Assembly (NCBI GenBank): GCA_036273515.1
Contig: DASUHM010000096.1
Location: 1 to 36,557, forward strand
DNA length: 36,557 nucleotides
Direction of reading: 5' to 3'
Source: Gaiellales bacterium
GTDB lineage: Bacteria > Actinomycetota > Thermoleophilia > Gaiellales > JAICJC01
Position 1 is the stretch's first letter, and each line of letters starts with the position of its first letter. Positions 4,407 to 32,995 of this stretch are shown piece after piece. The position numbers and the translations under genes are program-made. Under the pieces are notes generated by a model. The model saw only the letters and a program-made list of their open reading frames with translations. It was not told the DNA's origin and searched no databases.

Positions 4407-4474
4407 TAGATAACACGCCCGCTCGCCCGTACCGTTGCCTTAGTCAGGCTTTGGCCACGGGGGAGGTCATGTTG

Positions 4475-5305
4475 ATGCGGTACGGATGGACTCGCGCGCT
4501 CGCGGCGGTCGCGGCGTTTGCGTGCATGTTGGCGGCGCCTGCGGGCGCCGGGGTGACGGCTGCCGCGCAGGCGGCGCCGACGGAGCCGGTCGTCCTGATC
4601 GTGCTCGAGAACAAGACGTACGACAGCATCGTGGGCAACACGAACGCGCCGTACATCCAGTCGCTGATCGCGGGTGGGACGCTGTACACGAACTACCAGG
4701 CGGCGCCGGGCAGCCTGCCCGACTACCTGCGCATGACCGGCGGCATCGCCACGACGTCGGCCGCCAAGAATTCGGACAACATCTTCAACCAGCTCCAGGG
4801 CATCGGCCAGAGCTGGGGCGAGTTCGAGGAGTCGATGCCGTCGGCCTGCTACCTGAAGTCGGGCCCGCTGCCGTACGACCGCGCGCACAACCCGGCCTCC
4901 TACTACGGTGACATCACCTCGAAGCCGGCGGCGTGCGCCAACATGGTGCCGTTCACCGCCTTCGATCCGACGCATCTGCGGTCGTTCTCCTACGTCGTGC
5001 CGAACGACAACGACAACATGCACTCGGGCTCGAGCAAGACGGCCGAGATCAAGGCCGGCGACGCCTGGCTGAAGGCCCACGTCCCGGCGATGCTGGCCGG
5101 CGGCGCGCTCGTCATCGTCACCTGGGACGAGGGCAACCGCTCGAACGAGCACATCGCCACGATCGCCATCGGCGGCTCGGCGGGGCAGGGTGTGAAGGAC
5201 TCGCACGCGTACACGCACTTCGGCCTCCTGGCCGGCCTCGAGAACGCGTACGGCGTGCCGCTCCTGAACTCGGCGAAGACCGCTACGCCGTTCCCGATCA
5301 GCTAG
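4475..5305 (+). CDS. Secreted phosphoesterase (acid phosphatase / phospholipase C superfamily)
   Basis: A 276-residue secreted hydrolase. I chose ATG 4475 over the in-frame ATG at 4469 because GGGGGAGG (4459-4466) is then 8 bases away. The signal peptide spans about residues 1-34 (MRYGWTRALAAVAAFACM then LAAPAGAGVTAAAQA). The mature part begins VVLIVLENKTYDSIVGN, the metal-binding ENxxYD motif of the phosphoesterase family (PF04185 type). PNDNDNMHSGS (about residue 180) and VIVTWDEGN (about residue 212) supply the remaining conserved Asp/His metal ligands. It should release phosphate from phosphomonoesters or lipids outside the membrane. It is monocistronic, with a strong terminator after it. 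Confidence 0.88.
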   Translation: MRYGWTRALAAVAAFACMLAAPAGAGVTAAAQAAPTEPVVLIVLENKTYDSIVGNTNAPYIQSLIAGGTLYTNYQAAPGSLPDYLRMTGGIATTSAAKNSDNIFNQLQGIGQSWGEFEESMPSACYLKSGPLPYDRAHNPASYYGDITSKPAACANMVPFTAFDPTHLRSFSYVVPNDNDNMHSGSSKTAEIKAGDAWLKAHVPAMLAGGALVIVTWDEGNRSNEHIATIAIGGSAGQGVKDSHAYTHFGLLAGLENAYGVPLLNSAKTATPFPIS

Positions 5306-5311
5306 GAACGG

Positions 5312-5346
5312 ACCCGCCGGAGGGGGTCTGACCCCTTCCGGCGGGT
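5312..5346 (+). terminator. 15-bp hairpin terminator containing the GGGGTCTGACCCC core
   Basis: ACCCGCCGGAGGGGG (5312-5326) pairs with CCCCTTCCGGCGGGT (5332-5346), one G.U included, around loop TCTGA. The apex, GGGGTCTGACCCC at 5323-5335, is the same 13-base palindrome that forms the ends of the two 65-base elements at 26396 and 31918. The hairpin starts 7 bases after the phosphoesterase stop. Confidence 0.8.
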
Positions 5347-5383: not shown

Positions 5384-5887
5384 ATGGGCACGGCCGAGCG
5401 CATCCCCACACGCAGACCCTCACGGCGGTCGACCCGGCCCGTCCTCGGCACCGCGGCTTCGATCGTTGCGGTCATGCTCGGCGTGGTAGCCGCCACGGGA
5501 TGCGCGCCAGTGTCGTTCGGCGACACCTCCAACCTGCGAGTCAGTGAGGTGTGGCCGTCGCGCGGCCCCGCCGCACACGTCGATGCAGCGCTGATCGTGG
5601 TTCGCGTCGACGGCCGGCTGATTTTCCGACGGTTCGCAGCTTTGAGTGAGAAGCGCACCTACTCCGCCGACGACACAGGCCACTACACGATCTCCGCGGC
5701 GGTGTACCGGTGCTCGGGCGCATGCCGGGCCGGGAACGATCCACACCCTGGCGATCGTCGCATTGCTCGGTGCTCGCTTCGGGCCGACTTCGAGGGGAGT
5801 CGTGGGGCGAACTACCTGCTTGTCGTTCGCACCGGGCGACCGGCGTGTCGGCTCAAACGGGGTGCGACTGCTCGGAACCAAGCGTGA
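5384..5887 (+). CDS. Probable lipoprotein of unknown function
   Basis: A 167-residue frame starting MGTAERIPTRRPSRRST and running into a hydrophobic segment that ends VMLGVVAATGC, a lipobox-like site with Cys near residue 40. The mature part has four or more cysteines (YRCSGAC, RCSLR, ACRLK), suggesting disulfides, and alternates as if beta-rich (ALIVVRVDGRLIFRRFAAL, YTISAAVYRC). No family is recognised. The ribosome site is weak, and the frame could start earlier at 5345. The last 35 bases overlap the 3' end of the convergent MFS gene. The signal-peptide pattern and cysteine spacing favour a real gene over a shadow frame. Confidence 0.5.
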   Translation: MGTAERIPTRRPSRRSTRPVLGTAASIVAVMLGVVAATGCAPVSFGDTSNLRVSEVWPSRGPAAHVDAALIVVRVDGRLIFRRFAALSEKRTYSADDTGHYTISAAVYRCSGACRAGNDPHPGDRRIARCSLRADFEGSRGANYLLVVRTGRPACRLKRGATARNQA

Positions 5888-7064
5888 TCGCGCAGGCGAC
5901 CGCCGCGCCGGCGATGCCGAGCGTGAGCGCGGCGTGGACGCCCACGTGCGCGATCAGGCTGCCGCCCGCGGCCGTCCCGCCGGCGATGCCGATCGTCACC
6001 GCAGTCGACATCCAGCCGAAGATCTCGGCCTGCGTCCCCGGCACCGCCGCCCGCTCGAGCATGTTGTAGGCGACCGCAATGCTGGGGGCGATCGGCAGTC
6101 CGGCGATGAACATGACGACGGCCATCTGGAGGATCGAGCCCGCCAGCAGCGGGGGGATCAGGACGAGCACGAACACGGCGCTGATCACCTGCAGGCGGCG
6201 GTTGAGCGGGCCGTTCGAGGCGGCTGCGCCGGCGAGGATGCCGCCGACCAGGCTGCCGGCCGAGAATGCGGCGAGCGTGATCCCGCCCAGCGAACGGCCG
6301 CCGTGGCCCTCGGCGAACGCCGGCATCGACACCTCCGCCGCGCCGAACGCGACGCCGTAGGCGATCCCCAGCATGAGCAGGCGGCGGATGCCCCAGGGGA
6401 CGAGCGCCTGCAGGACGTGGTGGTCGGAGCGGTCGTGGCTCGGGTCGGGCCGGCGGGCGCGGACGGCCGGCGTCGAGGTGAACCCGATCGTGCCGGCGAC
6501 ACACGCGACGCCGGCGGCGACGATGCCGGCGCTCGCGGAGATGGTGGCGGCGAGCACCGCCACGATCAGCGGGCCGACGACGAAGATGACCTCCTGGATG
6601 GTGGCCTCGAGCGCGTAGGCCGTCGTGCGCAGATCGGGCCGTGGCAGCATCGTCGGCCACATCATCCGGATAGTCGGGCCGACGGGCGGCGCCAGCACGC
6701 CGGCGACGAGGGTTGCCGCCACGAGCACCGGCTCGGCGACCCGGGCGTGCGCGAGCGCGAGCAGTGCGGCCAGTGCCGTCCCGTACGCGAGCGCGTAGGT
6801 GATCACCACCGGCGCCGGCGGACGCCGGTCGACCAGCCGGCCGCCGACCACGCTGCCCGCGCCCGACGCCACGGCGTAGGTGCCGGAGACGATCCCGGCC
6901 GTCGCGTAGGAGCCGCCCTCGCTGCGGACGAGGAGGACGAGCGCGAGCGCGCTCATCCCCATCGGCATCCGCGCCAGCAGCCCCCACGAGACCACCCGCC
7001 GCGCCTCGCCGCCGGACAGCAGCTCGCGGTAGCTGCTGACACCCAGCGCCTGTGCGACGCTCAT
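5853..7064 (-). CDS. MFS transporter, drug-efflux-like
   Basis: A 403-residue integral membrane protein with about 12 hydrophobic helices, in two six-helix halves split by the hydrophilic segment RARRPDPSHDRSDHH (about residues 198-212). GGRLVDRRPP after helix 2 is a degenerate version of the MFS loop 2-3 motif (G-x-x-x-D-R). The pattern resembles actinobacterial DHA1-like multidrug or metabolite exporters. The ATG at 7064 overlaps the stop of the upstream reductase gene (ATGA), so translation is coupled. It is the last gene of the minus-strand run headed by the ArsR regulator. The substrate cannot be told. Its 3' end overlaps the convergent lipoprotein gene by 35 bases. Confidence 0.88.
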   Translation of the reverse strand: MSVAQALGVSSYRELLSGGEARRVVSWGLLARMPMGMSALALVLLVRSEGGSYATAGIVSGTYAVASGAGSVVGGRLVDRRPPAPVVITYALAYGTALAALLALAHARVAEPVLVAATLVAGVLAPPVGPTIRMMWPTMLPRPDLRTTAYALEATIQEVIFVVGPLIVAVLAATISASAGIVAAGVACVAGTIGFTSTPAVRARRPDPSHDRSDHHVLQALVPWGIRRLLMLGIAYGVAFGAAEVSMPAFAEGHGGRSLGGITLAAFSAGSLVGGILAGAAASNGPLNRRLQVISAVFVLVLIPPLLAGSILQMAVVMFIAGLPIAPSIAVAYNMLERAAVPGTQAEIFGWMSTAVTIGIAGGTAAGGSLIAHVGVHAALTLGIAGAAVACAITLGSEQSHPV

Positions 7065-24766: not shown

Positions 24767-25840
24767 ATGCCAGAGCCCCACGTCCAACCGACGGTCGGCA
24801 CCGCCGGCTCGCACTCGCCGGCGCCCGAGGTGCACAACACCGCCGCGCGGCTCGAGGCGCTCGGCGCCGAGACGATGCCGGCCGCCGAGCACTTCCGCCG
24901 CGAGCACTTCCCCGCGCCGGTGATCGATCCGCACGGCTGGCGACTGGTGCTCGGTGGGCTCGTCGAAACGCCGGCGATCCTGGCGCTCTCCGACCTGCAG
25001 GCGCTCCCGGCCCGGACGCTCCCGGTCGTGCTCGAGTGCGCCGGCCATCGCCGCGCCGAGCTCACGCCACCCGTGCCCGGACTGCAGTGGCAGGTCGGCG
25101 CGGTGTCCGAGGCGCGCTGGACGGGCGCGCGGCTGCGCGACCTGCTCGAGCGCGCCGGCGTCGACACGCGGGCGACCGGCGTCGTCCTCACCGGCGCCGA
25201 CCGCGGCCCGTTCGAGGGCGACGGCGGCCGGCACGCGTACGGCCGCTCGCTGCCGCTGCGGAAGGCGATCGATCCCGACACGCTGCTCGCCTACGAGATG
25301 GACGGCGAGCCGATCCCGGCCGCGCACGGCGGGCCCGTGCGGGCGATCGTGCCCGGCTGGTACGCCACCGACTCCGTGAAGTGGCTCGAACGGATCCAGG
25401 TGGCGGCGGAGGAGTACGAAGGGCCGTTCCACGCCGTCGACTACCGCTTCGCCGCCGCGGACGACCCCGGGCCGGGGGAGCGAATGGAGCGGGTGCCCGT
25501 GCACTCGCTGGTGACCCAGCCCGCACCCGGCACGGCGCTCGACCCCGGCCTCGCCCATATACGCGGTATCGCCTGGAGCGGCGGTGGCGCGATCACCCGC
25601 GTCGAGGTGCAGGTGGACGGCGGCGAGTGGCGGCGCGCGACGATCGCCGGCCGCGCCGGCCTGTACGGCCGCACCCGGTTCGAGCACGCCTTCGCGGCCG
25701 AGCCGGGGAGGCACACGATCGCCGTGCGCGCCCGCGAGGCGAGCGGCGACGCGCAACCGGAGGAGCCCGTCTGGAACAGGCGCGGCTACCGCAACAACGC
25801 CGTCCACCGGGTCACGGTGACGGTCAGGGAGGCACGCTGA
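24767..25840 (+). CDS. Molybdopterin-dependent oxidoreductase, sulfite oxidase family
   Basis: A 357-residue protein with a sulfite-oxidase-type molybdenum domain (RREHFPAPVIDP, then VVLECAGHRRAEL with the molybdenum-ligand Cys91, then VRAIVPGWYATDSVKWLERI). A C-terminal Mo-co dimerisation, Ig-like domain follows (RGIAWSGGGAITRVEVQVDG, and WNRRGYRNNAVHRV at the end). No heme or Tat signal is seen, so a cytosolic enzyme is likely. The expected reaction is sulfite to sulfate, although relatives reduce methionine sulfoxide or act on other S compounds. Its stop overlaps the next ATG (TGATG), coupling it to a thiol dioxygenase: a plausible organic-sulfur-to-sulfate module. Confidence 0.9.
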   Translation: MPEPHVQPTVGTAGSHSPAPEVHNTAARLEALGAETMPAAEHFRREHFPAPVIDPHGWRLVLGGLVETPAILALSDLQALPARTLPVVLECAGHRRAELTPPVPGLQWQVGAVSEARWTGARLRDLLERAGVDTRATGVVLTGADRGPFEGDGGRHAYGRSLPLRKAIDPDTLLAYEMDGEPIPAAHGGPVRAIVPGWYATDSVKWLERIQVAAEEYEGPFHAVDYRFAAADDPGPGERMERVPVHSLVTQPAPGTALDPGLAHIRGIAWSGGGAITRVEVQVDGGEWRRATIAGRAGLYGRTRFEHAFAAEPGRHTIAVRAREASGDAQPEEPVWNRRGYRNNAVHRVTVTVREAR

Positions 25841-26394
25841 TGGGCACGTTCGCACGCGACGCCGCAGTCGCCAACGAGACGGTCGCCGCCGACGCCGCGC
25901 TGGACGCGTGGCTGGCCGACCGCGACCGGGACAGGGAGTCCACACGGGCCGAGCTCGAGGAGCTCGTGCGCGAGCTGGCAACGCGGCCGGATCTCTGGAG
26001 CGGGCACGTGCGCCACTCGCAGGTCGAGCGGATCTACGTCCGCCTGCACCTGGACGACCATCTGGAGCTGTGGCTGATCTGCTGGTCGCAGCGGCAGGAC
26101 ACCGGCTTCCACGACCACGACGGCAGCCGCGGCGCGGTGGCCGTGGTGGGCGGCGCGCTCGCCGAGCGGCGGCTGGCGGCGGGCTGCGCCCAGCCGCCGA
26201 CGGCGATCTACCCGGCCGGCGCGGCCTTCTCGTTCGGGGCGACGCACATCCACGACGTCTCCCAGACGGGCGCCACCCTCGCGACGTCCCTGCACGTCTA
26301 CTCGCCCCCGCTGGGCGAGATGGGCTTCTACGAGGTCGCGCCGGACGGCACCCTCAGCCGCCGCACGGGCGACTACCGCGAAGAGTTCTGCTAA
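25840..26394 (+). CDS. Cysteine dioxygenase-type thiol dioxygenase
   Basis: A 184-residue cupin of the CDO family. Metal ligands are His91 and His93 in FHDHDGSRGAVAVVGG and a third in THIHDVSQ (His136 or His138). LHVYSPPLGEMGFYEV is the typical family C-terminal segment. CDO enzymes add oxygen to the sulfur of cysteine or 3-mercaptopropionate to give a sulfinate, using Fe(II). Length is close to bacterial CDOs. It is coupled to the sulfite-oxidase-like gene. The 65-base repeat element begins two bases after its stop codon. Confidence 0.88.
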   Translation: MGTFARDAAVANETVAADAALDAWLADRDRDRESTRAELEELVRELATRPDLWSGHVRHSQVERIYVRLHLDDHLELWLICWSQRQDTGFHDHDGSRGAVAVVGGALAERRLAAGCAQPPTAIYPAGAAFSFGATHIHDVSQTGATLATSLHVYSPPLGEMGFYEVAPDGTLSRRTGDYREEFC

Positions 26395-26700
26395 TCGGGG
26401 TCAGACCCCGAACGGCGGCCGTGCGTCTTTCGTGACACTTCCGTTCGGGGTCTGACCCCGGTCCAGCCGAAGAGCGCCGCGCCCGCCCCGACCAGGAGCG
26501 AAGCGGCCCAGAGCAGGTCGAGGTTGACCCAGGCGCGGCGCAGGATGCCGACGCCGACTACCTCGAACACGACCACGGCGACGGCGGCCGCGACGGCCAC
26601 CATCGCCAGCGTGTGCACGACGACCGCGGCGGCGCCGAACTCCAGGCCGCCCGGGATCGGCCCGTCGCCCGCCGGGACGCGGTGGGCGCTCCCGGGCCGC
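26391..26700 (-). pseudogene. 3' fragment of an integral membrane protein gene
   Basis: The minus strand encodes two hydrophobic helices (AAVVVHTLAMVAVAAAVAVV, and DLLWAASLLVGAGAALFGW) joined by GVGILRRAWVNLDL, a pattern I associate with small actinobacterial membrane proteins. Upstream of about 26700 the sequence belongs to another gene on the opposite strand, so the first helices and the start are missing. The last ~20 residues are read through repeat copy A. An ATG at 26750 could give a 119-residue frame, but its start would lie in the sulfotransferase fragment. The exact junction is approximate. Confidence 0.5.
26396..26460 (+). repeat. 65-base inverted-repeat element, copy A
   Basis: Perfect 20-base inverted arms (26396-26415 and 26441-26460) flank a 25-base centre. 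Each arm contains the palindrome GGGGTCnGACCCC followed or preceded by the CGAACGG/CCGTTCG part. It sits directly after the thiol dioxygenase stop. Copy B at 31918-31982 has the same length and architecture on the other strand; when both are read in the same orientation, their centres match at 17 of 25 positions. Confidence 0.85.
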
Positions 26701-27129
26701 CGGCGCCTGGCCGTTCCGGATCTCGTGCAGTCGGTGTTCCCGAACCTCACCTACCTCACCGTCACCCGCCGCGACAAGGTGCGCCAGGCGGTGTCGCTGT
26801 GGCGGGCGCAGAACGCGGATCGCGCCGCCGGTGACCGCCTCACCTACAGCCACGCCGCCATCGCCCACCTGATCAGGGACATCGAGGATCACGAGTTCGG
26901 CTGGCGGGCGTTCTTCCGCGAGAGCGGCGTCGAGCCGTTCGAGGTCGTCTACGAGGACTTCGCGGCCAGCTACGAGGACGCGCTCCGCGAGATCCTGCGC
27001 CACGTCGGCTTCCCCGAGGCCGACACCGTCGCGATCGCGACGCCGACGCGGCGCCGTCAGGCCGACGACCTCTCGCAGCGCTGGACCGAGCGCTACAAGG
27101 CCGAGTCCGGCCGGCTCGCGCACGCCTAG
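26700..27129 (+). pseudogene. 3' fragment of a Stf0-type sulfotransferase gene
   Basis: From about 26720 the plus strand encodes SVFPNLTYLTVTRRDKVRQA, then VSLWRAQNADRA, HLIRDIEDHEFGWRAFF and VVYEDFAASYEDALREIL. This is the C-terminal half of the Stf0 (trehalose 2-sulfotransferase-like) family. The N-terminal half, with the PAPS 5'-phosphosulfate loop, is absent. A frame open from 26524 precedes it but encodes low-complexity Thr/Ala/Pro antisense to the membrane fragment. It is therefore non-functional as a sulfotransferase, or a remnant. The boundary near 26700 is approximate. Confidence 0.65.
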
Positions 27130-27145
27130 ACCTACGATCCCGGGC

Positions 27146-27751
27146 ATGTGGATCGACCCGCCCGCCGCGGACGCCGTGCTCGTGCTCGCCCACGGCGCCG
27201 GCTCGGGCATGCGCTCGCCGTTCATGGCCGGCTTCAGCGAGGAGATCGGGCGCCTGGGCGTGGCGACGCTGCGGTTCGAGTTCCCCTACATGCAGGCGGG
27301 GCGGCGCGCGCCCGACCGGCCGCCGGTGCTGATCGACGCGTGGCGGGAGGCGTTCGTGGAGGGCGCGTCCAGGGCGGCCGGCCGGCCGGTGTTCGCGGGC
27401 GGCAAGTCGATGGGGGGCCGCATCGCCTCGATGGCCTCCGCCGAGGGCATGCCGGCGGCGGGGCTCGTCTTCCTCGGCTACCCGCTCCATCCGCCCGGGC
27501 GGCCGGAGAAGATCCGCGACGCCCATCTGTCCGACGTGCCGGTGCCGATGCTCTTCCTGCAGGGCTCGCGCGACAGCTTCGCCCGGCCCGACCTGCTCGC
27601 CGGCGTGATCGCCCGGCTCGGCCCGCGGGCCGAGTACGTCGAGGTGACGGGCGGCGACCATTCGTTCCGAGTGCCCGGCGGCCCGCGCGACGCCGCGGTG
27701 ATCGGCGCGTCGCTGGCCGAGCCGGCGGCGCGGTTCATTCGAGCCGTCTGA
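27146..27751 (+). CDS. Small alpha/beta hydrolase (TEX30/KANL3-like)
   Basis: A 201-residue serine hydrolase-fold protein. VLVLAHGAGSGMRSPFM carries the oxyanion-region HGAG. GGKSMGGRIA (about residues 90-99) is the nucleophile elbow with Ser. LQGSRDSFA supplies the Asp, and GGDHSFRV the His. Family members are uncharacterised hydrolases. TACGAT lies 7 bases before the ATG and there is no ribosome site, so it is probably leaderless. The 3' end overlaps the convergent GNAT gene by 17 bases. Confidence 0.87.
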   Translation: MWIDPPAADAVLVLAHGAGSGMRSPFMAGFSEEIGRLGVATLRFEFPYMQAGRRAPDRPPVLIDAWREAFVEGASRAAGRPVFAGGKSMGGRIASMASAEGMPAAGLVFLGYPLHPPGRPEKIRDAHLSDVPVPMLFLQGSRDSFARPDLLAGVIARLGPRAEYVEVTGGDHSFRVPGGPRDAAVIGASLAEPAARFIRAV

Positions 27752-28253
27752 TCATCGCCACCCGCGGGTGGTCGCCCGGGATGGCGGTCGCCTCGTGCGC
27801 GACGAGCGCCCGCAGCTGCGGCCCCCACTCGCCCTCCGGCAGCTCCGTGAAGCCGAGCCGCGCGTAGTAGGGCGCGTTCCAGGGGATGTCGCGGAAGGTC
27901 GTCAGCGTGAGCGCGGGGCGTCCGTCGGCGCGGGCGGCTCCGGCGAGGTGGTCGATCAGCCCGGCGCCGATGCCGCGGCCGGCCTGGGCCGGGGCGACGC
28001 TCACCTGCTCGACGTGCAGGCAGCCGTCCACCTCCGCGGCGAGCAGGTAGGCGACCGGGCCGTCGCCGTCGGCCGCGACCCATGCCAGGCCCGCCGTCCG
28101 GTACGCCTCGAGCTCCTCGGGTGAGCCCGGGTCGTCGGCGGCGATCTCGGGCATGCCGTGGTCGGCGAAGGCCTGCCCGGCGGCCGCCTCGATCTCGACC
28201 AGCCGGGCCAGCTCGTCCGCCGCCGGCGGGCGGATCACGAATCGAGCAGCCAT
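27735..28253 (-). CDS. GNAT-family N-acetyltransferase
   Basis: A 172-residue acetyltransferase. LHVEQVSVAPAQAGRGIGAG followed by LIDHL is motif A, with the acetyl-CoA pyrophosphate loop QAGRGIGAG at about residues 90-98. WNAPYYARLGFTEL is motif B. The acceptor is unknown. The gene overlaps the end of the kinase-like gene by 19 bases and ends a minus-strand run starting at 31903. Confidence 0.88.
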   Translation of the reverse strand: MAARFVIRPPAADELARLVEIEAAAGQAFADHGMPEIAADDPGSPEELEAYRTAGLAWVAADGDGPVAYLLAAEVDGCLHVEQVSVAPAQAGRGIGAGLIDHLAGAARADGRPALTLTTFRDIPWNAPYYARLGFTELPEGEWGPQLRALVAHEATAIPGDHPRVAMIRRLE

Positions 28254-29044
28254 CGCACCGCCTCGACGTGCTCGGGCGGACCGCCGCCCACCGCCCAGGC
28301 CACGGTCTGGCCGATCGTCCAGCCGCGGGCGCGGTCGCGGTCGAGCCCGAGCTCAGACGTGAGCCGGTCGAGCCGTCCGAGCACCGCCCGGCGGGAGTGG
28401 CCGAGCTCGAACGAGCGCACGATCGGCGCCACCGCGAACTCGCGCTCGCCCGCGAGCGGCTTGGGGTCGATCGCGAGCCACGGCTCCCGCTCCGCCGCGA
28501 GCACGTTGTCGCCGTGCAGATCCTGGTGCAGCAGCACCTGCTCGCCCTGGCTCGGCGCAAGCTCCGTCAGCACCTGGATGGCGGCGTCGACCAACCGCCG
28601 CTCGAAGGGCCGCCCGGCCGCCTCCCACTCGTCCGCCAGGTAGCTCACCCACCAGCCCGCCTCGTCGGCGAGCGTGTGGAACGGCGGCTCGGCCGGCACC
28701 CACAGCCGCGGCAGCAGGCCGGTCAGCACGGCGAGCGCGGTCTCCGGGCCGGTCGCCGAGAGTGGGGTGCCGGGCTCGCAGCGCTCGATCAGGACGGCCC
28801 AGCCGTCGTCGGTGCGGTCGAGCAGGCGCACGGCGCCGTTCCCGTCCCAGCGGGCCAGGGCGTCGGCCTCGTGCTCGGACTCGCGGTGCGGGTGGATCAG
28901 CTTGAGCACTGCAGGCGCGCCGTCGGGGAGGTCCGCTGGGGCCGCGTAGCCGCCTGCGCCGGCGGCGTAGGGCGCGCCCAGGGCCAGGCCCCAGCGGTCG
29001 CGCAGCTCCTCGATCCGGTCTAGAGGCGGGTGCGGATCGCCCAC
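28235..29044 (-). CDS. Streptomycin 6-kinase / hydroxyurea-phosphotransferase-like kinase
   Basis: A 269-residue kinase-like protein of the APH(6) type. PAVLKLIHPHRESEHEADAL contains the ATP-anchoring Lys and the Glu of the small lobe. LLHQDLHGDNVLAAE is the catalytic Brenner motif (Asp and Asn). WLAIDPKPLAGE is the DFG-equivalent with the metal-binding Asp. The start is GTG at 29044, overlapping the dioxygenase stop by 25 bases; upstream sequence in frame is antisense noise. It may phosphorylate an aminoglycoside-like or other hydroxylated compound. A true resistance role is not shown. Confidence 0.83.
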   Translation of the reverse strand: MGDPHPPLDRIEELRDRWGLALGAPYAAGAGGYAAPADLPDGAPAVLKLIHPHRESEHEADALARWDGNGAVRLLDRTDDGWAVLIERCEPGTPLSATGPETALAVLTGLLPRLWVPAEPPFHTLADEAGWWVSYLADEWEAAGRPFERRLVDAAIQVLTELAPSQGEQVLLHQDLHGDNVLAAEREPWLAIDPKPLAGEREFAVAPIVRSFELGHSRRAVLGRLDRLTSELGLDRDRARGWTIGQTVAWAVGGGPPEHVEAVRWLLDS

Positions 29045-29817
29045 AGGTCGGGAAACGCCTGGCGGCCGATGGTGGACGCGAGGTAGTCGACGCCCGCCGA
29101 TCCGCCGGTGCCCGCCTTGCGGCCGATGGTGCGCTCGACCATCTTCACGTGCCGGTAGCGCCACTCCTGCACGCCCTCGTCGATGTCGACCATCCGCTCG
29201 CACACCTGGGCGCTGGCCGGGTCCGACTGGTAGACCTCGACCAGGACGTCCTGCACCGCCTCGGACGGCTCCACCGGCAGTGCCGGGTCGCGGTCGAGCA
29301 CGCCGTCGGGGATCCAGTGGCCGAGCCGGTTCAGGTGCAGAAGGAACGAGTCCCACAGGCTGCGGCGCGACATCGCCGCCTGGATCCGGTCGCGGGCCGG
29401 CCCGGCCGGGTGGTGGTCGAGGACGCCGGCGTCGCGGCCGCCGAGCACGGCCTCGAGCTCGCGGAACTGGGCCGACTGGAAGCCGCTCGCCCGCTCCAGC
29501 CGGCCCCGGAAGCTCGAGAAGCCGAGCGGCGTCATCGTCTCGAGCACGTCGATCTGGGCGACGATCGTCTTCAGGATCGTCAGGATCCGCTTCATCGTCA
29601 TGAGGGCCGAGCCGCGGTCGCCGATCTCGAGCCGGTCCTGGAGCCGCTCGAGCTCGTGCAGGAGCACCTTGAACCAGAGCTCGTAGACCTGGTGGATGAC
29701 GATGAAGAGCATCTCGTCGTGCTCCGGGCCGTCGGAGAGCGGCTGCTGGCAGGCGAGCAGCTCGTCGAGGTGCAGGTACGACGAGTAGGTGACGGCGGGA
29801 TGCTCGGGGGCGGCCAC
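29020..29817 (-). CDS. kynA: Tryptophan 2,3-dioxygenase
   Basis: A 265-residue heme enzyme that opens the indole ring of L-tryptophan to N-formylkynurenine. MLFIVIHQVYELWFKVLLHE (about residues 36-55) holds the substrate-binding His and the helix next to heme. FSSFRGRLERASGFQS and YRHVKMVERTIGRKAGTGGS (near residues 220-240, with the proximal His) are diagnostic. The GTG start lies 7 bases after the flavoprotein stop, so the two are probably co-transcribed. No kynureninase or formamidase gene is in the window. Confidence 0.93.
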   Translation of the reverse strand: MAAPEHPAVTYSSYLHLDELLACQQPLSDGPEHDEMLFIVIHQVYELWFKVLLHELERLQDRLEIGDRGSALMTMKRILTILKTIVAQIDVLETMTPLGFSSFRGRLERASGFQSAQFRELEAVLGGRDAGVLDHHPAGPARDRIQAAMSRRSLWDSFLLHLNRLGHWIPDGVLDRDPALPVEPSEAVQDVLVEVYQSDPASAQVCERMVDIDEGVQEWRYRHVKMVERTIGRKAGTGGSAGVDYLASTIGRQAFPDLWAIRTRL

Positions 29818-29824
29818 CGCCGAA

Positions 29825-31903
29825 CTATCGCACCGCGGCCAGCGCGTCCGCCTCGAAGCCGGGGCGCTCGCGCAGGTGGGGCAGCGGCCGGGCCGGGTCG
29901 GGCGAGTCGATCTCGCGGCCGAGCCGGTGGCCGTCCCAGATGGCGTCGGCGATCAGCCGCGGGGCGACGCAGTCGCCGATCCGGTAGACGGCACCGATCC
30001 CTGCGCCCACGAGCTCGAGGTAGAGCGCCTCGTCCGAGACGCGCTGGGTGACGAGCACGAACGCGTCGGCCTCGACCGAGAAGGTGTCGCCGAGCTCGGT
30101 CTCGCCGTCGGCGCCGCCGGCGCCGATCCGGGTCAGCCAGGCCTCGGCCCGCATGCCGATGCCGAGGTCGTGCAGGTGGCGGCGCAGGATCGGGCCCTCC
30201 AGGGTCTCATCGCACAGCGGCGCGACCTTCTCGCACGAGGTGATGAGCTCGACCTCGTGGCCGTGCCCGCGCAGGAGCTCGGCCATGCCGGCGCCCGTGA
30301 AGTAGCCCTCGCAGTCGAGCACGATCGCGCGCGACCCTGGCGGGCGCTTGCCGTCGAGCATGATCTGTTCGGGGGTGAGCACGTGCGGGAGCGAGGCGTC
30401 CGCGCCCGGAATCGCCCCGCGGGTGATGCCGTTTCGGCCGTCGCCCGCCCAGGCCGCGCCGGTCGCGATCACGACGAGGTCGGCGCCGGCCGCGCGCACC
30501 GCCGCGGCGTCCATGCGCACGCCGGTCTCGATCTCGACGTTGGGCAGCCGGGCGAGCTGGCCCAGCCGCCACGTGCGCAGCCGGTCCCACTCGGCCAGTC
30601 CCGGCAGGCGCGGCACCCAGCGGGTGAGCCCGCCCGGCTCCGCGGCCGCGTCCACCAGGCGCACGCGGCGCATCCCGCGGCGGCCGAGCACCATCGCGCA
30701 TTCCATCCCGGCCGGCCCGGCGCCGACGATCAGCGCTTCGCGGTCGGCGTTCGCGGCGCGGTCGAACCGCTCCGGGTGCCACCCGCGGCGGTGCTCCTCG
30801 CCCGCGGTCGCGTTCTGGGTGCAACCGATGTGGCGGCGGACGTCGCCCTTCGAGATGCACATGTTGCAGCCGATGCAGGCGCGGATGTCGGCGAACCGGC
30901 CCTCGCGGATCTTCTCGGGGATGAACGGGTCGGCGATGTTCGGGCGGGCCGCACCGATCAGATCCCAGACGCCGGACTCGACGATCGCGGCCATCCGCTC
31001 GGGTGTCGTCAGCCGGCCGACGCCGACGATCGGCTTGGCCGTCGCCTCGCGCACGTGCCCGGTCCACTCGAGCTGCCAGCCCTCCGCGAAGAAGCGCGAC
31101 GCGCCGGAGTCCTTCGACCATTCCAGGATCGAGCCGATGTGGACGTCCCACAGGTCGACCAGGTGGTCGGCCATGCGCACGAACGCGAGGCCCTCGTCGA
31201 GCTCGACGCCTGGCCCGCCCGCCGCCGAGACGGCCATCCGGCAGGCGATGGCGCAGTCGGAGCCGACCGCGTCGCGCACCGCAGCGAGCGTCTCGATCCA
31301 CATCCGCGCCCGGTTCTCGAGCGAGCCGCCATACCCGTCGGTGCGCTGGTTGTAGAACGGCGAGAGCATCTGGCCGAGCAGGTAGGAGTGGCCTCCGTAG
31401 ACGTAGACGATGTCGAAGCCGGCGTCGCGCGAGCGGATCGCGGCCTGCACCCAGTCGGAGACGATCCGGTCGATGTCGAGCTGCTCCATCCGCTTCGGCG
31501 TGATGTTCGAGAAGTCGCTCGCGATCTGGGACGGCGCCGGAGGCGGCTGGCGGGTCTCGCAGTTCTCGCCGTGGGCGCCCGAGTGGGAGAGCTCGATGCC
31601 GGCCAGCGCGCCGTGCTCGTGCACCGCCTCGGTCAGGATCGCGAGGTGGCGCAGGTCGTGGTCGTCCCACATCCGCGCCGAGATGTACGGCGTCTCGTCG
31701 GCGTCGCTGGACACGGTGCAGTACTCGGTGCAGACGGCCGCCCAGCCGCCCTCGGCCTTGACGGCCCGGTGGGCCGCCTGCGACCAAGGCTTCTCGACGC
31801 CGAAGCCCGTGCAGTGGGGCACCTGGTAGAAGCGGTTGCGCAGCGTCTTCGGGCCGATCTGGACGGGCTCGAAGAGGATGTCGAAGCGCGGATCGGCGGC
31901 CAT
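29825..31903 (-). CDS. Iron-sulfur flavoprotein of the trimethylamine/dimethylamine/histamine dehydrogenase family
   Basis: A 692-residue three-part enzyme. The Old-Yellow-Enzyme-like FMN barrel begins RNRFYQVPHCTGFG; Cys31 matches the Cys that binds FMN covalently in trimethylamine dehydrogenase, and Tyr61 and Trp252 match its amine-pocket residues. A 4Fe-4S site follows (Cys343, 346, 349, 361). A pseudo-FAD/ADP-binding C-domain has GAGPAG at 394-399. RRGWHPERF, IPGADASLPHVLTPEQ and GDCVAPRLIADA also track trimethylamine dehydrogenase. In the WYGGAH segment of that enzyme the Tyr is His here (SHSGAH), so the amine may differ; the shorter length suggests a histamine-type member. It gives aldehyde, amine and electrons to an ETF not seen here. 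TATAGT lies 8 bases before the ATG. Confidence 0.92.
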   Translation of the reverse strand: MAADPRFDILFEPVQIGPKTLRNRFYQVPHCTGFGVEKPWSQAAHRAVKAEGGWAAVCTEYCTVSSDADETPYISARMWDDHDLRHLAILTEAVHEHGALAGIELSHSGAHGENCETRQPPPAPSQIASDFSNITPKRMEQLDIDRIVSDWVQAAIRSRDAGFDIVYVYGGHSYLLGQMLSPFYNQRTDGYGGSLENRARMWIETLAAVRDAVGSDCAIACRMAVSAAGGPGVELDEGLAFVRMADHLVDLWDVHIGSILEWSKDSGASRFFAEGWQLEWTGHVREATAKPIVGVGRLTTPERMAAIVESGVWDLIGAARPNIADPFIPEKIREGRFADIRACIGCNMCISKGDVRRHIGCTQNATAGEEHRRGWHPERFDRAANADREALIVGAGPAGMECAMVLGRRGMRRVRLVDAAAEPGGLTRWVPRLPGLAEWDRLRTWRLGQLARLPNVEIETGVRMDAAAVRAAGADLVVIATGAAWAGDGRNGITRGAIPGADASLPHVLTPEQIMLDGKRPPGSRAIVLDCEGYFTGAGMAELLRGHGHEVELITSCEKVAPLCDETLEGPILRRHLHDLGIGMRAEAWLTRIGAGGADGETELGDTFSVEADAFVLVTQRVSDEALYLELVGAGIGAVYRIGDCVAPRLIADAIWDGHRLGREIDSPDPARPLPHLRERPGFEADALAAVR

Positions 31904-31911
31904 GGCGGCCG

Positions 31912-31917
31912 ACTATA
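31912..31917 (-). promoter_or_regulatory. -10 box TATAGT of the flavoprotein operon, abutting repeat copy B
   Basis: On the minus strand TATAGT (31917-31912) lies 8 bases before the ATG at 31903. Copy B begins at the adjacent base 31918, so the -35/-10 spacer would be formed by the element's outer arm. The -35 would fall at about CTTACG/TTACGT, partly inside the element. Confidence 0.6.
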
Positions 31918-31982
31918 CGGGGTCAGACCCCGAACGTAAGTGCAACGGAACTGCAACGGCCGACGTTCGGGGTCTGACCCCG
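31918..31982 (-). repeat. 65-base inverted-repeat element, copy B
   Basis: Perfect 20-base arms (31918-31937 and 31963-31982) flank a 25-base centre. Read on the minus strand, its centre aligns with copy A at 17 of 25 positions without gaps, with conserved ends CGGCCGT and CACTT. The innermost arm pair is G-C in copy A and T-A here, a compensatory change. It lies in the divergent gap between the flavoprotein and the metallophosphoesterase. Confidence 0.85.
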
Positions 31983-32056: not shown

Positions 32057-32995
32057 GTGCGTGTCTTCTTCGCCACGGACATCCACGGGTCAGAGACGTG
32101 CTGGCGCAAGTTCCTGAACTCGGGAACGCACTACAAGGCCGACGTTCTCATCCTGGGGGGCGACATGACCGGCAAGGCCCTGGTGCCCGTCATCGACGAC
32201 GGCAACGGGCACTGGCACGGCACGCTCCAGGAGCAGCGCCGCGACCTGCAGGGCGACGACGAGGTCAAGGCGTTCGAGCTGGACGTGATCCGGCGCGGGT
32301 ACTACCCGTTCCGGACGACGCCCGACGAGCTGGCGGAGCTCGAGGCCGATTCCGAGCGGCTCGACGAGCTCTTCCATAGCCACATGCTCGGCACCGTCGA
32401 GCGGTGGATGCAGATGGCCGAGGAGAAGCTGGCGGGCCAGCCGCAGCGGATGTTCGTCTGCCCCGGCAACGACGACCAGTTCGAGGTCGACGACATCCTG
32501 GCCGCCGCCCGCAGGGTCGAGCTGGCCGAGGGCCGGGTCGTCGACATCGACGGCTTCCAAATGGCCTCGACCGGGTGGGCGAACCCGACCCCGTGGCACA
32601 CCTACCGGGAGGAGCCGGAGGACGTCCTGCTCGAGCGCATCCGGTCGGTCACCTCGCAGCTGACGGCGCCGCCCGAGCGGACGATCCTGAACCTGCACTG
32701 CCCGCCGCACGGCTCCGGCCTCGACGACGCCCCCGGCCTCGACGATGACCTGAAGCCCAAGCACGGCGGGCATGCGCCCGAGCCGGTCGGCTCGACGGCG
32801 GTGCGCGAGGCGATCGAGGAGACCCGGCCGGTGCTCTCGCTGCACGGCCACATCCACGAGGCCCGCGGCCACACCCGCATCGGGCCGACCCTCTGCATCA
32901 ACCCCGGCAGCGCCTACGAGCAGGGCGACCTGATGGGCGCCCTGATCGAGCTCAACGGCAAGAAGGTGAAGAACTTCGTGCTCACCAGCGGCTGA
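32057..32995 (+). CDS. Calcineurin-like metallophosphoesterase
   Basis: A 312-residue phosphoesterase. Its metal-binding motifs occur in order: FFATDIHGS (Asp8, His10), ILGGDMTGK (Asp36), FVCPGNDD (Asn-Asp), LNLHCPPHG, and LSLHGHIHEARG with the last His pair, then INPGS. These form a dinuclear metal site. The middle holds an alpha-helical insertion (about residues 45-125) not found in minimal YfcE-type enzymes. GTG 32057 is chosen because an extended promoter ends 8 bases before it. The substrate is unknown. The permease gene follows 11 bases on, suggesting an operon. Confidence 0.88.
   Translation: MRVFFATDIHGSETCWRKFLNSGTHYKADVLILGGDMTGKALVPVIDDGNGHWHGTLQEQRRDLQGDDEVKAFELDVIRRGYYPFRTTPDELAELEADSERLDELFHSHMLGTVERWMQMAEEKLAGQPQRMFVCPGNDDQFEVDDILAAARRVELAEGRVVDIDGFQMASTGWANPTPWHTYREEPEDVLLERIRSVTSQLTAPPERTILNLHCPPHGSGLDDAPGLDDDLKPKHGGHAPEPVGSTAVREAIEETRPVLSLHGHIHEARGHTRIGPTLCINPGSAYEQGDLMGALIELNGKKVKNFVLTSG

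Follow-up and report, generated by a model that had tools for sequence, protein, structure and literature searches.

The window analysed here, a stretch of 36,557 nucleotides that forms contig C96 of a 4.07-Mb genome in 98 contigs, contains two inverted-repeat elements, copies A and B, each 65 bases long with perfect 20-base arms around a 25-base centre. These dimensions, already given by the sequence-only reading, are confirmed directly on the sequence, as are the agreement of the arms at 19 of 20 positions, with an innermost pair that differs between the copies (G-C and T-A), and the match of the centres at 17 of 25 positions once copy B is reversed; the opposite orientation of the two copies is borne out by an asymmetric centre common to all copies of the family. 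Comparison across the family shows the true repeating unit to be an 18-bp REP (GGGGTCAGACCCC followed by GAACG), bordered on the outside by a conserved C and, with its inverse, enclosing a centre of 27 bp; the 20th arm base lies outside the conserved arm (table 1). A third feature, absent from the earlier description, is a solitary palindrome that starts 9 bases past a predicted gene end and has the same core as copies A and B within other outer arms. No Rfam family matched at gathering score within the window.

Table 1. Repeat features of the window, with positions counted from its first base.
Feature	Position	Strand	Remarks
REPIN copy A (type B)	26396..26460	-	inverted REP pair flanking a 27-bp centre, whose asymmetric sequence is read on the minus strand
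REP of copy A, GGGGTCAGACCCC-GAACG	26397..26414	+	CAG loop on the + strand
27-bp centre of copy A	26415..26441	-	two 11-bp iterons (GAASYGYMACG-like)
Inverted REP of copy A, CGTTC-GGGGTCTGACCCC	26442..26459	-	
REPIN copy B (type B)	31918..31982	+	flanked by divergent genes 29825-31903 (-) and 32057-32995 (+)
REP of copy B, GGGGTCAGACCCC-GAACG	31919..31936	+	
27-bp centre of copy B	31937..31963	+	two 11-bp iterons (TAAGTGCAACG GAACTGCAACG GCCGA)
Inverted REP of copy B, CGTTC-GGGGTCTGACCCC	31964..31981	-	
Solo 29-bp palindrome CGCCGGAG-GGGGTCTGACCCC-TTCCGGCG, type A REP family	5315..5343	.	between convergent genes 4451-5305 (+) and 5853-7064 (-)

A search of the whole genome for further copies, proposed when the two elements were first noticed, found some 265 palindrome units. 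The core palindrome GGGGTCNGACCCC has 265 exact occurrences against 0 for the reversed pattern in the same genome, so the repeats are not due to chance. Family statistics were drawn from 1.83 Mb (45% of the genome), where 110 exact cores belong to at least three families told apart by their surroundings: type B, the family of the window's REPINs (C-GGGGTCAGACCCC-GAACG ... CGTTC-GGGGTCTGACCCC-G), type A (CACCA-N3-core-N3-TGGTG) and a small GAATA type. Type B forms about 25 doublets in this portion, with a centre of exactly 27 bp in 21 of 25, and the sister species (G002) holds 21 further type-B REPINs, every one with a 27-bp centre under a pattern that allowed 15-45. The centre is asymmetric and comprises two 11-bp iterons (GAASYGYMACG); one copy, at C31:18895, has a 38-bp centre, equal to one extra iteron. 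The arms are more conserved than the centre (majority fraction 0.991 vs 0.772, with the sister-species set biased by its selection for exact arms), and a search with the centre only is in agreement, 16 of its 18 matches at up to 3 mismatches carrying both arms. The earlier picture of fixed arms around diverged centres therefore stands for the arms; the centres have not diverged freely, since their 27-bp length and two 11-bp iterons are kept. The iteron slots alternate between GCAAC and GTCAC (20 and 12 in one slot, 15 and 21 in the other, of 42 copies); intermediates are few, as though these words were swapped as blocks (e.g., at 31937-31963). Two inverted REPs with a short, less conserved spacer, able to form hairpins, present in many dispersed copies and extragenic in location (92 of 110 cores intergenic, compared with about 10% of random positions, using a home-made gene finder) are the features that characterize REPINs.

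Folded as single-stranded DNA, copies A and B each reach about -27.7 kcal/mol (z = -8). The conserved fold is a pair of small hairpins rather than the single long hairpin that had been offered beside it: the small hairpins are intact in 21 of 21 copies, whereas the long one is broken in 5 of 21 at pair 7/57, which is the loop base of the small hairpins. Selection on the folded form, also suggested from the two copies, is supported for the small hairpins. The proposed covariation of the innermost pair (19/45) was rejected as an over-read coincidence between two copies, since these positions pair in 8 of 21 copies, where 8.7 would be expected. Stem covariation is not visible within this one genome because the copies are too alike.

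A search with Y1_Tnp for a transposase gene, which the sequence-only reading had recommended, finds two full-length genes for RAYTs (HuH/Y1 REP-associated tyrosine transposases), both on contig C8 of the same genome: RAYT-A (240 aa), with a weak C-terminal helix-turn-helix (HTH_38 match under cut-off), and RAYT-B (180 aa, about 68943-69485), in which Pfam profile comparison found no C-terminal HTH. Both score above the Pfam cut-off for Y1_Tnp, contain the HYH and Y-x3-NP motifs and occur as one copy each in the genome; they occupy separate places in the RAYT tree. Their only NCBIfam match is NF047646 (REP_Tyr_transpos), with scores of 79.2 and 73.6 under a curated cut-off of 80, and RAYT-B matches E. 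coli TnpAREP 4ER8 (E=0.0012). RAYT-B has the type-B REP CGGGGTCAGACCCCGAACG at -99 (upstream) and the inverse of that REP at the 3' end of the gene, RAYT-A is bracketed in the same way by type-A REPs, and the REPs of the window match the RAYT-B flanks over 19 bases. A Y1_Tnp domain with HuH and Y-x3-NP motifs, encoded in single copy between inverted REPs, is the signature of a RAYT. The shared architecture, together with the bracketing of RAYT-B by exactly the window's REP and of RAYT-A by a family with the same core, indicates a REPIN/RAYT system. We interpret the elements of the window as REPINs, hairpin-forming REP doublets that act as non-autonomous single-strand mobile elements and depend on a RAYT, most probably RAYT-B, for mobilisation in trans, and put the probability of this reading at roughly 0.88. 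It agrees with the initial suggestion of a REP-like element that is dispersed and non-coding and is probably mobilised in trans, the RAYT genes lying elsewhere in the genome.

That RAYT-B cuts and moves these REPINs is the most likely assignment, judged from anatomy and comparison. Mobilisation by the larger, helix-turn-helix-bearing RAYT-A, in place of RAYT-B or beside it, presupposes that the outer bases matter little; the identical 13-bp core GGGGTCNGACCCC flanks both genes, but their outer sequences stay distinct, GAACG/CGTTC and an AAYC foot accompanying RAYT-B and CACCA...TGGTG accompanying RAYT-A, and this, with the 19-base match of the window REPs to the RAYT-B flanks, makes RAYT-A an unlikely mover. 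The assignment to RAYT-B is itself weakened by the shared core, through which RAYT-A could also move REPINs, and by a REPIN centre not clearly derived from the RAYT-B ends: the upstream end of the RAYT-B element gave no match to the centre, and the downstream match was equalled by 20 of 1000 random windows. Derivation of the REPIN from the RAYT-B element by simple internal deletion was rejected, the REPIN centre being without convincing homology to those ends. It is weakened, too, by the sister species, rich in type-B REPINs, where the nearest B-like RAYT (in an assembly that is 82% complete) is 64% identical and flanked by GGGGAC cores, and by genomes such as G056, of the same order, with 97 GGGGTC cores and no RAYT with that flank among the loci read. 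A RAYT-B pattern search of genome contigs returned 24 matches, none confirmed as relatives.

Across 61 genomes, for each of which some RAYT loci were read, core copy number follows the core that flanks the genome's RAYT (permutation p=5e-5). Where a matching flanked RAYT was read, copies range over 17-265 for GGGGTC, 12-243 for GGGGAC, 2-27 for GGTGCC and 56-69 for GGTGTC; elsewhere the medians are 0, 0, 1.5 and 1, respectively. Among the RAYT-flanking palindromes of the order, the triloop is CAG or CTG (one CGG), stem pair 3 is G-C or T-A, and pair 5 is T-A, A-T or C-G. Cells with double changes in the stem number 15, compared with 5.0 in shuffles and with 0 of 500 shuffles as high, and sliding the stem partners abolishes the signal; it should be noted that these cells are not independent events, as related RAYTs have common ancestry. 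The true covariation is thus that of stem pairs 3 and 5, by compensatory changes across the order. Sister RAYTs can differ in their cores (L006 TC vs L157 AC; L025 TC vs L017 GGTGCC). Tentatively, and with more doubt than confidence, RAYT recognition in this order may be a hairpin code, with a near-fixed CAG/CTG triloop, alternating near-invariant G-C pairs, and compensatory pairs 3 and 5 and outer arms that switch as RAYTs diverge; under such a code, two RAYTs of different clades would have come to use the same core in one genome, told apart by foot and outer arms.

Comparison with relatives showed sites in several states. Copy A has an orthologous REPIN at the same place in the sister species (L152), whose arms are identical and whose centre has diverged. 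The gene at 25840-26394 before copy A has no counterpart there in that species, in which the preceding gene adjoins the REPIN. At the site of copy B the sister species (contig C93, L152) has a different REP array, of GGGGACTGTCCCC units, after the same GACTATAC; this divergent intergenic site is thus one reused by another REP family. The site at C30:2997 is shared, those at C2:78117 and C16:10497 are substituted by other REPs, C2:78117 and C40:32775 are empty in genome G001, and one REPIN of the sister species (L195) corresponds to a cleanly empty site in the genome of the window. Empty sites, which had been proposed as a check, are thus found beside shared and substituted ones, and the description of the element as old becomes doubtful, because most comparable sites differ between the sister species. 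One REPIN (L198, JAICUV010000161.1), on a contig binned as Chloroflexi, agrees exactly, near flanks included, with a contig of Thermoleophilia (L208), and probably represents mis-binning rather than transfer.

No target-site duplication was found over 46 copies (k=4: 13 vs 9.8 shuffled; k=5-7 not above chance). The foot of the hairpin reads AAYC (A 56/92, A 69/92, C or T 66/92, C 90/92). Short, non-coding elements of high copy number with terminal inverted repeats might also be MITEs of a DDE transposase; this class was rejected for lack of the duplication, and the matching ends flank HuH/Y1 genes, so that we regard it as extremely improbable.

The distribution of cores relative to genes is uneven, with 43 of 92 intergenic cores between convergent genes (47% vs 17%) and 9 between divergent genes (10% vs 31%). 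Ten of the 18 "genic" cores lie at predicted gene ends, where the stop codon is the TGA at the palindrome middle, and both RAYT reading frames (L005, L006) stop in the TGA of their downstream core; these ten gene ends and two frames indicate that REPs supply stop codons. The marked excess of cores behind genes and in convergent gaps, like the genes that end in a palindrome's TGA, would suit host-selected RNA hairpins, acting as bidirectional terminators or 3'-end stabilisers and copied by ordinary recombination with no current transposition. Such an origin seems quite improbable given the exact REP flanks around the RAYTs, the link of RAYT core to copy number, the empty and substituted sites between sister species, and the position of copy B between divergent genes. 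A putative terminator role and a mobile-element role are not mutually exclusive.

For the REPIN/RAYT system, we propose that, when the locus becomes single-stranded, each REP would form a hairpin of 6 bp closed by a CAG triloop (CGGGGT-CAG-ACCCCG), with a 5' AAYC foot before it. The RAYT would read loop, stem and foot, the roles of foot and iterons being putative, and cut with its HuH/tyrosine centre, presumably by the corresponding strand chemistry. The REP-centre-inverted REP unit would then pass whole into intergenic sites, which for the most part lie immediately behind genes, and would duplicate no target sequence.

Both REPINs and RAYTs are established in the literature (PMC3116915, PMC2817692, PMC8049555). 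As in the REPINs of Bertels and Rainey (2011; PMC3116915), two inverted, conserved REPs surround a less conserved spacer in extragenic DNA alongside a single-copy RAYT; unlike them, the present family differs in sequence and has no GTAG/GTGG-type tetranucleotide at the 5' hairpin foot, which reads AAYC, its centre keeps two 11-bp iterons, and one core is common to several REP families. E. coli REP/BIME with TnpAREP (PMC8266576, PDB 4ER8) shares a homologous HuH-Y1 protein and a hairpin with a 5' foot, but that foot is GTAG, and here the stem is perfect and bulge-free with a 3-nt CAG/CTG loop. The nearest type is the TIRYT/TIRtron, in which tyrosine transposases are flanked by terminal inverted repeats with GGGGWSAS, some self-complementary and some dimers (Di Nocera et al. 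2013; PMC3733652); the foot of the present family is AAYC in place of GTAG. Inverted GGGGTCAG flanks occur at both RAYTs, GGGGTCAG and GGGGACAG fit GGGGWSAS, the repeats stand at a fixed distance on either side of a RAYT-like gene and are also found as dimers in the genome, and RAYT-A has a C-terminal HTH, as do most of that group (PMC6006769). Unlike TIRYTs, whose families are called moderately abundant (PMC3733652), the present repeats number hundreds of copies and form true doublets around an iteron-bearing centre of fixed length (27 bp), and RAYT-B is without a C-terminal HTH. Thermoleophilia was not found in PMC3733652. RAYT-A also resembles TnpAY1 subclass 2.1, to which we liken it by its HTH-like C-terminal extension only, the hallmark of that subclass; a survey found no REP-like sequences beside genes of subclasses 2.1 and 2.3 (PMC6006769), whereas abundant hairpin repeats go with the HTH-bearing RAYT-A. 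A literature search for the core sequence gave only unrelated papers, and none treating REPs of Thermoleophilia was found. The kind of element is thus known, but no description appears to exist of this abundant family or of its atypical recognition hairpin.

These observations tie an abundant REPIN population to little-studied TIRYT-like RAYTs, whose nearest subclasses were reported without REP-like repeats, and place REPINs in Thermoleophilia, a class outside the REP papers found. The occupation of the same intergenic site by different REP families in sister species offers a view of REPIN turnover, and the series of cores paired with RAYTs (TC, AC, CC; GGGG or GGTG starts) provides a ready test of hairpin choice.
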